Shown: positions 60,731 through 64,000 of the stretch, in pieces
Numbering within the stretch: position 1 is the stretch's first letter
Layout: each line of letters starts with the position of its first letter
Origin: Acidobacteriaceae bacterium
GTDB lineage: Bacteria; Acidobacteriota; Terriglobia; Bryobacterales; Bryobacteraceae
Length of the DNA stretch: 64,000 nucleotides
Direction: 5' to 3'
Assembly: GCA_019240405.1 (NCBI GenBank)
Contig: JAFAYL010000043.1
Location: 1 to 64,000 of the forward strand
Position numbers and translations under genes: made by a program
Notes under the pieces: generated by a model
The model's input: the letters and a program-made list of their open reading frames with translations, nothing else
Told to the model about the DNA's origin: nothing
Database searches by the model: none

Positions 60731-60782
60731 TTACCGATTTAGCGGATCTTCGATCTATTACCGATTTAGGGGATCTTCGATC
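60731..60782. repeat. 27-base tandem direct repeat over the ThyX-like stop codon
   Basis: Two copies of a 25-base unit, TTACCGATTTAG[C/G]GGATC then TTCGATC, occur at 60731–60755 and 60758–60782 with one mismatch and a 27-base period. The second copy encodes the last codons of the ThyX-like protein (IEDPLNR and stop); the first lies between it and the nuoB stop. It is probably a local duplication. Confidence 0.85.
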
Positions 60783-62215
60783 CAGGGCGGGGTTACTTCA
60801 ACGAGCGTTCCGAGTGCCGGATCGAGCCTTTCGAGAGCTTGCTTCATCTCCCACGCGATTTTTCGATAAGAGAAATGGCCTTTCACGCCGCTTCGTAGGC
60901 GCGAGATGTATTCCAATTCGGCGAAATCCATCTTAAATAGGAATCGGGATCGCGCGGCAAAAGGCAGCAGGTATTGCGCTGCCGGCTGTGGCAGCTTTTC
61001 AATTGCGGCATCGGCTTCGCGCAGCGCTTCCCGATAAACCTCTTCAGCCCCGCATTTGGCCAATAACTCAGGCGTTTCATAGCCGAGACGGTTCGTATAC
61101 TGCTGGCGAAATTGCTGGCAGCGGCGATGACGGTGCAGATCGCGATACGCGCCGACGTCCATTGTGAAATCGAACACGTAGGGCGCGCTGCGAAATTGGC
61201 GTGGCAATTCGTCCCGGCGACTTCGAGCGCCGAGCGCGACGGACAACAGCTCTTGTTTCTGAGGCGGATGCCATCCACAGGCAAGCTCATATAACTCGCG
61301 ATAGGGCCGGTCGGTCACGGAATAAAGGAGTGTTGCGCAGATGTCGGCGATCGAATCGGCCGGTTGCATCAGATCTAAGGGGGGCGCGCTCGAAGCTCCT
61401 GGCGCCGGTAGCCGATGCGATGCCCACTCGGTGAGATCGGCTCTGAGCCGGCTCGTGTATTCATCTCGATCCGCGTGGCGCGCGAGTGTAGGCGCCAGCG
61501 CTTCCTCGCCGGCCACGTGACCGTTCCATGCGCATTCAGGAGCGCTCGCACACGCGCCGGTTAGCTCGTCTGCCAATTCGCGGATTTCCTGAAATTCCGA
61601 CGCTTTTAGCCGCCGTATCTGCTTTTCCAGAGTTCGAATACTCGTTACTTGGCCCACGCCGGTGGAGCTGCCGAATGGCAGCAGGTAACGAGCCACGTCA
61701 AACGCGCGTGCAGCAATGTTCCGCCGGTAGGTCTCCGGCTTCATCGCTGCGGGCTGCGGCAGTTGCTCTTCGTAATACGAAACAGCACGCTGATGCACGG
61801 TTCGGTAGGCATCGCGCAGCCTTGCCGTTGCGTCTTCGTAGATTCTGATTTCAGAGGCGGTCAGTTCAGGAGGCACTATGACGCCGGCGCTCGAGAAGTC
61901 CTGGTAGCGCGAACTCCTCGCTTGGCCGTCCCAAAGTTGCTCGTCTTCAATTTCCGCAGCGGCTAATTCGGAAATGCCTTCGAAGCAGACCGCAACGTGC
62001 CCGAGATCTGCGATCGATGCATGCCCGTATTGAAAATAGAAGCTTTCCAGAAACCTTGCTGAATCGTGCGACCGCACCCACTCGAGTGACTTGGCGATGG
62101 AATCCGGCGACCGGCTGTAACGCGCTAACGCATACGCCAGCTTCTCTGCCGGCATCGGCGCAACGCTAAGCACGCGCTTGCGGGATGAGGGCTGAAGTAT
62201 CGGCGATCCGCTCAT
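60758..62215 (-). CDS. Tandem-domain ThyX-like protein
   Basis: The 485-residue protein contains two ThyX-like halves. In the first (about 1–235), SLEWVRSHDSARFLESFYFQ and YGHASIADLGHVAVCFEGIS resemble the ThyX N-terminus, and ARYLLPFGSSTGVGQVTSIR with EFQEIRELADELTG the C-terminus. The second half (about 270–485) has FDFTMDVGAYRDLHRHRRCQ, near the ThyX motif RHRxxSxxxxSxR, and AQYLLPFAARSRFLFKMDFA. Neither half has the full motif: the first keeps SSRY without RHR, the second has RHR with C/Q where Ser is usual. It may make dTMP or have another flavin function. It diverges from dut by 26 bases. Confidence 0.75.
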   Translation of the reverse strand: MSGSPILQPSSRKRVLSVAPMPAEKLAYALARYSRSPDSIAKSLEWVRSHDSARFLESFYFQYGHASIADLGHVAVCFEGISELAAAEIEDEQLWDGQARSSRYQDFSSAGVIVPPELTASEIRIYEDATARLRDAYRTVHQRAVSYYEEQLPQPAAMKPETYRRNIAARAFDVARYLLPFGSSTGVGQVTSIRTLEKQIRRLKASEFQEIRELADELTGACASAPECAWNGHVAGEEALAPTLARHADRDEYTSRLRADLTEWASHRLPAPGASSAPPLDLMQPADSIADICATLLYSVTDRPYRELYELACGWHPPQKQELLSVALGARSRRDELPRQFRSAPYVFDFTMDVGAYRDLHRHRRCQQFRQQYTNRLGYETPELLAKCGAEEVYREALREADAAIEKLPQPAAQYLLPFAARSRFLFKMDFAELEYISRLRSGVKGHFSYRKIAWEMKQALERLDPALGTLVEVTPPWIEDPLNR

Positions 62216-62241
62216 GAAGCCGCTATGATAGCGGATTCGCG

Positions 62242-62673
62242 ATGCGAATTAGGATCAAGAAACTGCATCAGGACGCGCACCTTCCCGAATACGCGCACGG
62301 CCCGCAAGAAGATGCCGGAATGGATATCCGATGTGTCGAAGGAGCGCTGCTCGAGCCAGGGATTCCGAAAGCCATTCCGACGGGACTTGCGCTCGAGATA
62401 CCATCGGGTTTCGAAGTCCAGATTCGACCTCGCAGCGGTCTGGCGCTGAAACACGCGATCACGCTGCCGAACTCGCCCGCAACGATCGATCCCGGCTATC
62501 GCGGCGAGTTGAAGATCATCATGCTGAACCTGGGAAGGGCAGCTTACGAAATACATCCTGGCGATCGCATCGCGCAAATGATTGTGGCGAGATACGAGCC
62601 GGTCGAATGGGAGGAGGGAGAGCTGGCCGACTCACAGCGCGGCAGTGGCGGCTTTGGTTCATCTGGCCGATGA
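62242..62673 (+). CDS. dut: dUTP diphosphatase
   Basis: The 143-residue protein has all five dUTPase motifs: motif 1 HGPQEDAGMDIRC, motif 2 VQIRPRSGLALKH, motif 3 NSPATIDPGYRGELKIIMLN, motif 4 HPGDRIAQMIVA and motif 5 RGSGGFGSSGR (RGxGGFGSTG). It hydrolyses dUTP to dUMP for thymidylate synthesis and keeps uracil out of DNA. The start is ATG 62242. It lies between the ThyX-like gene and dcd, a deoxypyrimidine cluster. Confidence 0.96.
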   Translation: MRIRIKKLHQDAHLPEYAHGPQEDAGMDIRCVEGALLEPGIPKAIPTGLALEIPSGFEVQIRPRSGLALKHAITLPNSPATIDPGYRGELKIIMLNLGRAAYEIHPGDRIAQMIVARYEPVEWEEGELADSQRGSGGFGSSGR

Positions 62674-62675
62674 AC

Positions 62676-63260
62676 CTAGGAGTCCTTTTTGTCCGCGATC
62701 TCCGCAGTCAATCGACTTGCCACCGGGTGCGCTTGCCCGGCGTACTTGTTCCCGGCCTTTTTGTAATAGGGCACCGACACGGCTGACGAGAGCTGTTCGA
62801 AAGTGAACGAGCAGATGCGCATTCCGGCGTAGAGCGCGACCGGCATGATGCCGAGATTACTGAGCTCGAGCGTCGCCCTGCCGCGCCATCCGGGATCAAA
62901 TAGGCCAGCGGTTCCATGTACGATGATGCCGATGCGCCCGAGACTTGACCGGCCTTCCAGCCGCCCAAGAACATCGTCGTCGAGCTCGAGAGTCTCTTCT
63001 GTAATGGCCAGCGCAAATTCGCGGGGCTGCAGAATAAACGGCTCGCCATCCTTGACGCGCACAGTTCGCATGATGTCCTGAATCGCGCTTTTTTCGCGCA
63101 CGTCGATATAGGGGAAGCGGCTATGCTCGAAGATGCTGAATTCGTTGCCTAAGCGGAAATCGACCGAGCAGCTTCCGAACTGCTCGGGTGGCAGCTCAGG
63201 CGAGATGCGGATTTTGCCCTCTTCGATGTAACGGCGGATATCGACATCGGAGAGAACCAT
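62676..63260 (-). CDS. dcd: dCTP deaminase
   Basis: The 194-residue protein begins MVLSDVDIRRYIEEGKIRIS and has GSCSVDFRLGNEFSIFE, FALAITEETLELDDDVLGRL, EGRSSLGRIGIIVHGTAGLF, DPGWRGRATLELSNLGIMPV and ISAVSVPYYKK-type end (SVPYYKKAGNKYAGQ), all Dcd landmarks. The catalytic Glu sits in ALAITEETLEL. It makes dUTP from dCTP. I chose ATG 63260 because residues upstream (LGWLFARRGSH) are not family-like. The stop is 2 bases from the convergent dut stop. Confidence 0.95.
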   Translation of the reverse strand: MVLSDVDIRRYIEEGKIRISPELPPEQFGSCSVDFRLGNEFSIFEHSRFPYIDVREKSAIQDIMRTVRVKDGEPFILQPREFALAITEETLELDDDVLGRLEGRSSLGRIGIIVHGTAGLFDPGWRGRATLELSNLGIMPVALYAGMRICSFTFEQLSSAVSVPYYKKAGNKYAGQAHPVASRLTAEIADKKDS

Positions 63261-63372
63261 ATGGGAGCCGCGCCGCGCGAACAGCCATCCTAGCATGCGA
63301 TGTTATATAAAGGGCGTGGCGGATTTGGTTGCGCCCTGCGCGCTTGCGTGATTTGCGCGGGAGTTGATTTGT

Positions 63373-63448
63373 GGGCGGCTAGCTCAGTTGGGAGAGCACC
63401 ACGTTCGCAACGTGGGGGTCGTGGGTTCGAATCCCATGCCGTCCACCA
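63373..63448 (+). tRNA. tRNA-Ala (anticodon CGC)
   Basis: The 76-base gene folds as a full cloverleaf: acceptor GGGCGGC with GCCGTCC, D arm GCTC/GAGC, anticodon stem CCACG/CGTGG with loop TTCGCAA (anticodon CGC, reading GCG Ala codons), T arm GTGGG/CCCAT with TTCGAAT, and an encoded ACCA 3' end. All conserved positions I checked pair, with wobble pairs only in acceptor and T stems. Confidence 0.96.
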
Positions 63449-63545: not shown

Positions 63546-64000
63546 TTACGCAGCCAAATCCAATGGAAGGTCGGTTATATCTTTTAGCCGTTCACCCTCG
63601 ACCATGATCTTCAGAAGTTGGACCGAATCTTCGATTTGAAGCTTTTCCACGCTGCTAATAAGTTCGGGCAACGCGAAATGATAGACACAATCAATATCCG
63701 TGGTTCCTAGGGCAAGCGATGCCAAGCGGCTGGGCAGGGGCTCACCTGTAACGACAGCGATGTGCGGCACTCTACCTTTTCTCTTCCGAATTAAGCTCAG
63801 CGCTTCAGACCTGTCGGTCCGCAGTGTCCACTTACAAGAGATGCTGGCATGAAGGATCGCCGGTTTGTTATTATGCTCCCGAATTTGCGAGCGTAATGCA
63901 ACCATTTCATTAACCCGCACGTACTTCCGGTTAATAGCCTTGTCGGGCTCAAGCTCGCGCAGCACCAGCACATCTGGAGCGATAACGCAATCACTGCCCA
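63546..64000 (-). CDS. NgoMIV-like type II restriction endonuclease, C-terminal part (runs off the window end)
   Basis: The frame is open from the window edge to the stop at 63546, about 151 codons. I recognise the NgoMIV family: SDCVIAPDVLVLREL (active-site Asp), then AILHASISCKWTLRTDRSEA with the S-C-K active-site motif and a downstream Glu, then HIAVVTGEPLPSRLASLALG, TTDIDCVYHFALPELI and GERLKDITDLPLDL. NgoMIV cuts GCCGGC and belongs to the CCGG-recognising endonuclease group; the specificity of this protein is inferred. The 5' half and any methyltransferase are outside the window. It sits beside tRNA-Ala, a common integration spot. Confidence 0.85.
   Translation of the reverse strand, partial: GSDCVIAPDVLVLRELEPDKAINRKYVRVNEMVALRSQIREHNNKPAILHASISCKWTLRTDRSEALSLIRKRKGRVPHIAVVTGEPLPSRLASLALGTTDIDCVYHFALPELISSVEKLQIEDSVQLLKIMVEGERLKDITDLPLDLAA

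Follow-up and report, generated by a model that had tools for sequence, protein, structure and literature searches.

Can a protein made of two ThyX-like halves, with the active-site motif divided between them, serve as a thymidylate synthase? This question is raised by a gene close to the end of the window, the whole stretch of 64,000 nucleotides that was analyzed. The gene may code for an enzyme with one active site built from both halves, or the activity of its product may have changed. The features of the locus are the following:

60758..62215, minus strand: tandem ThyX gene (485 aa) with two stretches that match Pfam Thy1 (111.7 bits); one of the 176 distinct tandem proteins compared
61451..62215, minus strand: N half, residues 1-255, predicted ThyX fold; H65, S67, S101, R103, Y104, R176, R194
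61904..61915, minus strand: codons of SSRY (S101-S-R-Y104), the dUMP/lid loop; S.R[YF] in 90/90 N halves
60761..61450, minus strand: C half, residues 256-485, predicted ThyX fold; R362, H363, R364, R441
61124..61132, minus strand: codons of RHR (R362-H363-R364), the flavin-holding motif; in 90/90 C halves and 0/90 N halves
62242..62673, plus strand: dut, dUTP diphosphatase; Pfam dUTPase match, NCBIfam above cut-off; divergent from thyX
62676..63296, minus strand: dcd, dCTP deaminase; Pfam DCD match, NCBIfam above cut-off; convergent with dut

The gene cluster

The sequence-only reading had placed the ThyX-like gene, dut, and dcd together. All three are present here, but only the pair of dut and thyX is conserved in related loci. 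The start codons of these two genes are 26 bp apart, head to head, and a divergent dut adjoins the tandem thyX in 78 of 80 related loci; of the two exceptions, L064 starts at the contig end and L045 showed no dut. A dcd gene was near the tandem thyX in only 19 of the 80 loci, and dcd was dropped as an essential part of the unit. Among the same loci, nuoB was found in 7 and malQ in 5, and the numbers for all three genes need to consider that many loci are cut by contig ends. The minus-strand dcd gene starts at 63296 or, under the alternative start implied by the coordinates of the sequence-only reading, at 63260. No sigma-70-like site was found in the promoter scan. A tRNA-Ala (CGC) gene at window positions 63373-63448 separates dcd from a restriction-enzyme-like gene at 63546-63998, the product of which runs off the window, with a match of 213 bits to the C-terminal portion of the NgoMIV family of restriction enzymes.

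Predicted folds of the two halves

Two ThyX-fold halves had been proposed for this protein, and family matches and structure prediction agree with it. The match to Pfam Thy1 (PF02511; E 4.9e-32) passed the gathering score of 24.8. TIGR02170, the NCBIfam model of thyX, matched the N half only and did not reach its curated cut-off (37.7 bits versus 87.9), and Thymidylat_synt (PF00303) was not among the Pfam matches at E values up to 0.001. An AlphaFold2 model of the whole protein, based on its sequence plus those of 61 related loci, had a mean pLDDT of 82.4 and a pTM of 0.85. In this model, the N half matched M. tuberculosis ThyX (3gwc_E) with a Z score of 11.4 and 2.0 Å over 166 residues, and also PolB with a Z score of 8.5 and 2.5 Å over 154 residues, which is level with T. 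maritima ThyX. When folded alone with 60 sequences, the C half reached a pLDDT of 88.0 and a pTM of 0.87, with 3fnn as the best structural match (Z 10.9, 3.7 Å over 145 residues). The entry 3fnn is an atypical ThyX, from an organism that depends on ThyA according to the title, and ordinary ThyX followed just behind at Z 9.8; the top 47 entries consisted entirely of ThyX and the related PolB, before the Z score fell to 2.4 in the following row.

The pLDDT of the whole model was below 50 at residues 1-4, 59-72, and 442-444, and the mean values of the blocks 61-70 and 101-110, the latter with the SSRY segment, were 42 and 62, so that the uncertainty of the model is concentrated in the site loops. 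Neither the protein nor its alignment profile yielded a match in a sequence search of the PDB. The 17 weak matches of a C-half profile, all with E values of at least 0.041 (ribosomal protein S13, kinesin, SinR), were taken as chance. Two other tandem subtypes matched single-domain ThyX entries only, with at most 270 residues, and thus the sequence searches revealed no structure of a tandem protein.

If the protein were instead a ThyX relative with another substrate or function, for example a UMP/dUMP methylase similar to PolB or a flavoprotein with a regulatory role, the synthesis of dTMP would be left to another, undetected enzyme. The missed NCBIfam cut-off, the tie of PolB with T. maritima ThyX as a match of the N half, and the atypical ThyX at the top of the C-half list agree with such a protein, although ordinary ThyX is close to the latter. 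The active-site residues and the gene inventories presented below nevertheless make a changed job improbable, and less likely than one site formed by both halves.

Distribution of the active-site residues

According to passages of PMC6514825, the site of the Mycobacterium (M. tuberculosis) ThyX draws residues from three subunits: Arg95-His96-Arg97 and Arg199 from subunit A, Ser71 and Arg190 from B, and Ser105, Arg107, and Tyr108 (and Arg87) from C. Transferred by alignment to T. maritima ThyX, role A is represented by R78-H79-R80 and R174, role B by T55 and R165, and role C by S88, R90, and Y91. Passages of PMC3498832 attribute Ser88/Gln89 to one monomer and Gln75/Arg182 to the other. This Arg182 was taken as T. 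maritima R174, which activates dUMP as stated in a passage of PMC8316439. In the window protein, the N-half residues H65, S67, S101, R103, Y104, R176, and R194 correspond to T. maritima H53, T55, S88, R90, Y91, R147, and R165, and the C-half residues R362, H363, R364, and R441 to R78, H79, R80, and R174.

The separation of the motifs seen by the sequence-only reading was located exactly: SSRY occupies residues 101-104 of the first half only and RHR residues 362-364 of the second half only. A contiguous RHRx7S...RY motif within one domain is absent from the window protein; both parts exist, in different halves. The comparison comprised 176 distinct tandem proteins including that of the window, 155 of them from bacteria and 21 from records of phages or viruses, which were picked by full-length profile score and length and not by motif, and were condensed by shared 4-mers to 90 nonredundant proteins. 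Ten loci (L002, L019, L024, L150, L153, L155, L182, L206, L240, and L244) were excluded from both the tandem and the ordinary set as duplicate, fragment, contig-edge, intein-bearing, or single-domain cases, and 25 further loci were dropped because their frame was identical to one already in the set.

All 176 tandem proteins contain S.R[YF] first and RHR 184-292 residues further on (180-330 allowed), and none contains RHR followed by S.R[YF] at 5-9 residues. The S.R[YF] motif does occur in 5 of the 90 C halves, in none of them at the ordinary spacing after RHR, and 3 of the 90 have RHRx7S without the subsequent xRY. Ordinary ThyX proteins from the same phylum, including one contig-edge fragment (L164), possess [RK]H[RQ] and SxRY in 33/33 cases each, exactly as [RK]H[RQ]x7SxRY in 26 of them and with one additional residue (x8) in the other 7. 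A sequencing error as the origin of the split was dropped and the decay of one gene ruled out, since the partition is common to 176 distinct proteins.

Mapping of the ThyX active-site residues onto both halves, as had been suggested with the split, yielded complementary sets, RHR plus R174 in the C half and S/T55 plus S88/R90/Y91 in the N half. By alignment, each of R78, H79, R80, and R174 is present in 90/90 C halves. The N halves (n = 90) have S88, R90, S/T55, and R147 in 90 cases each, H53 in 89, and Y91 in 87, with F in the remaining 3. At the position of T55, S or T was found in 1 of the 90 C halves. Tyr occupies the Y91 position in 58% of the C halves, in a gapped loop. Arg also aligns with R174 in 65 of the 90 N halves, beside a one-residue gap, and this indicates that R174 was not cleanly lost there. 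Arg190, the role B residue that equals T. maritima R165, is kept in 50/50 N halves of the subgroup of the window protein and varies elsewhere; its value as a marker is low, given the variability of ordinary ThyX at this position. An alignment of 62 sequences with 59-74% identity to the window protein revealed H65, S67, S101, R103, R176, R194, D359, R362, H363, R364, and R441 as invariant and Y104 as nearly invariant.

The site is not identical to that of ordinary ThyX, because Gln75 is replaced by Asp and Glu86 by Ala in the subgroup of the window protein. These exchanges would again fit a changed job, but the principal residues for substrate and flavin are retained, though split. It is also very unlikely that catalysis is confined to one half, assembled into a homotetramer, with the other half as a structural passenger. 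The two halves are divergent and a ThyX fold is predicted for each, as such an arrangement would allow, but neither half combines RHR and S.R[YF] at the ordinary spacing in any protein (0/90), and both retained residue sets are near-invariant.

In a tree of the halves, the N halves formed one group with a weak support of 0.49, and the C halves stood apart with 0.89. A single fusion at the origin is favored on this basis, and a single duplication may have preceded it.

Thymidylate synthases in the genome and its relatives

A canonical thyA or thyX elsewhere in the genome had been named as the finding that would speak against a split site, and none was detected. The genome has no PF00303 ThyA, no second Thy1 protein, no PF00265 thymidine kinase, and no match to PF00186 DHFR. 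With 95.8% completeness in 63 contigs, the assembly could lack a normal thyA or thyX and the tandem protein could be dispensable, but this is the least probable explanation, because ThyA is absent from 40 of 40 genomes of the genus, family, and order (this genome included), among them the single-contig relative G027, in which Thy1 matches only twice, both times within a single 490-residue frame.

Thy1 was found in 37 of these 40 genomes, with two matches in 36; the three without it are 62%, 55%, and 93% complete. None of the 40 contains DHFR, and 13 have a thymidine kinase. The absence of ThyA from this genome and its relatives, and of a second Thy1 protein from this genome, argues against a changed job, as does the dut gene adjoining the tandem gene.

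Within the Acidobacteriota (n = 247, this genome included), Thy1 is present in 178 genomes, of which 126 show two matches and 52 a single one. A double match is not always the sign of a tandem protein, since G136 has an intein-split ordinary ThyX, G229 probably the same, and the two matches of G084 lie on separate contigs. A strong ThyA (E < 1e-90) is present in 58 genomes, none of which has Thy1. Another 17 have weak PF00303 matches only, 10 of them alongside Thy1 (7 with two matches) and 7 without, and 4 of the 247 have no Thy1, no strong ThyA, and no weak PF00303. The class sample lists 22 members of the family, and two of them, G226 and G355, have no tandem gene. Both have a PF00303 protein, and 19/19 tandem-bearing family genomes that were tested have none. 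This looks like gene replacement, which argues for thymidylate synthase activity of the tandem protein and again against a changed job. The tandem ThyX is probably the sole thymidylate synthase of this group of soil bacteria. For Acidobacteria, the section of PMC5954106 on this topic gives ThyX in 6/6 and ThyA in 0/6 cases and does not mention fused forms.

Several of these genes have features of their own. The ThyA-type proteins of G226 (L238, contig C7) and G355 (L248, contig C84) are about 500 aa long; the former is fused to DUF4346 (PF14251), and the latter is alike by eye. In G136 (L240, contig C1, 1508-3427, minus strand), the active-site motif of an ordinary ThyX is interrupted between KHR and SGRY by an intein-like insert that contains an HNH domain, and the protein of G229 (L155) may resemble it. 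Genome G076 (L239, contig C25) and other f30 g54 genomes have neither Thy1 nor a strong ThyA; their weak PF00303 protein, of 292 aa in G076, is possibly a divergent thymidylate synthase.

Homologs in other phyla and in phages

A check of plasmid records outside the sample gave 18 matching records. Five of them, from Euzebya, Miltoncostaea, Paenibacillus, Parabacteroides, and Thermomicrobium, are homologs whose scores extend over the greater part of the tandem profile; in the other 13, the match spans 31-36% of the query. All five have S-x-R-Y confined to the first half, and four have RHR in the second half, where Paenibacillus has R-H-N-R. The H53 position is Asp in 3 of the 5. The homolog from Thermomicrobium roseum (WP_012643046.1) is probably thermostable. 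The proteins themselves are not new, because members are already named FAD-dependent thymidylate synthase in public records.

Tandem split-site ThyX proteins are also encoded by large phages, namely, two Vibrio phages (L180 and L183), Ma-LMM01 (L179), and Tunturi_5 (L178). Tunturi_5 is a jumbo phage of an acidobacterium; its homolog is 37% identical over 98% of the query and adjoins a dCMP deaminase, with a dUTPase near. The copy of Vibrio phage MS32 is annotated as a hypothetical protein only. In a search of viral contigs, P0001 and the Tunturi_5 protein as queries retrieved no relative, and the Ma-LMM01 protein retrieved 24 loci with 92-97% identity over the best segment.

A probable site composed of both halves

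The gene most likely encodes a working flavin-dependent thymidylate synthase, a duplicated and fused ThyX with specialized halves that forms a two-site pseudo-tetramer, and this reading is given a probability of about 0.82. The proposal of the sequence-only reading that one site may be built from both halves gains from the conservation of the residues across the tandem proteins, from the three-subunit assignment in passages of PMC6514825, and from finding no other thymidylate synthase in the genome. The residues of all three roles, A (RHR and R174), B (S/T55), and C (S88, R90, and Y91), are contained in the tandem protein, role A in the C half and roles B and C in the N half.

A ThyX gene would have been duplicated and the copies fused, with specialization of the halves after the fusion. 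The C half would hold FAD with RHR and activate dUMP with the arginine that corresponds to T. maritima Arg174. The N half would contribute Ser-x-Arg-Tyr as the dUMP-binding or lid loop, and its Ser/Thr may touch the FAD phosphates. By analogy to ThyX, two chains would pair into a pseudo-tetramer with 222 symmetry, with positions A and D taken by the C halves and positions B and C by the N halves. Wherever a C half plays role A, N halves would fill both partner roles, and the site would be complete. A dimer, with an estimated mass of about 107 kDa, would thus possess two complete and two dead sites, a layout that follows from the published symmetry and the residue counts, and each complete site would draw domains from both chains. 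One FAD and one dUMP would be bound per chain. In concert with dut, and at this locus also with dcd, the presumably catalytically active protein would lead from dUTP and dCTP to dTMP.

ThyX sites span three subunits and the fusion splits them, so that the subunit roles are separable in one gene. Each residue set can be mutated alone in this natural fusion, and the composite-site model as well as the need for four sites could thereby be tested directly. The tandem protein should function like ThyX yet misses the TIGR02170 cut-off and the contiguous motif, and searches that use either of them can overlook this class.

Comparison with known systems

The tandem protein resembles ThyX (PF02511, TIGR02170; T. 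maritima TM0449, M. tuberculosis ThyX) in the predicted fold of both halves and in the FAD and dUMP residues. It also shares with ordinary ThyX the presumed composite multi-subunit sites, the putative role in dTMP synthesis, and the lack of ThyA or DHFR matches alongside. It differs by two fused copies per chain that have lost complementary residue sets, by a predicted number of two instead of four sites per four domains, and by a score below the TIGR02170 cut-off.

The phage tandem thymidylate synthases (PHROG 36506; Ma-LMM01 gp020, Tunturi_5 gp50, and those of the Vibrio phages MS32 and BONAISHI) agree in length and two-half layout, and in the motif partition in the five counted. The Ma-LMM01 protein matches the fold of the window protein over the full length (E 2.2e-22, TM 0.68). 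The phage proteins differ in sequence, with 37% identity to the window protein at best and 25-30% for the others that cover more than 80% of it, and they are annotated as thymidylate synthase or hypothetical.

Among the papers listed by searches of the open-licence PMC library, no title or abstract opening describes a tandem ThyX or a split-site reading. It would be a rather speculative step to regard these proteins as a widespread, undescribed class of thymidylate synthases, an obligate two-domain ThyX of Acidobacteriota, Actinomycetota, Bacillota, Bacteroidota, Thermomicrobiota, and several phages, in which the subunit roles of the homotetramer are fixed in different halves and half of the sites are dead by design and free for other purposes, for instance, nucleotide regulation. 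The ThyX of Chlamydia trachomatis (CT632) has about double the usual length, and is a possible precedent for the tandem form. Passages of PMC3498832 report its use in an NADPH oxidation assay.

A similar logic of duplication and fusion exists in an enzyme of unrelated family and reaction. The tandem ThyX may be compared in this respect to the dUTPase of Epstein-Barr virus, where a multimeric enzyme with composite sites was duplicated and fused, and fewer sites are spread over the fused copies.
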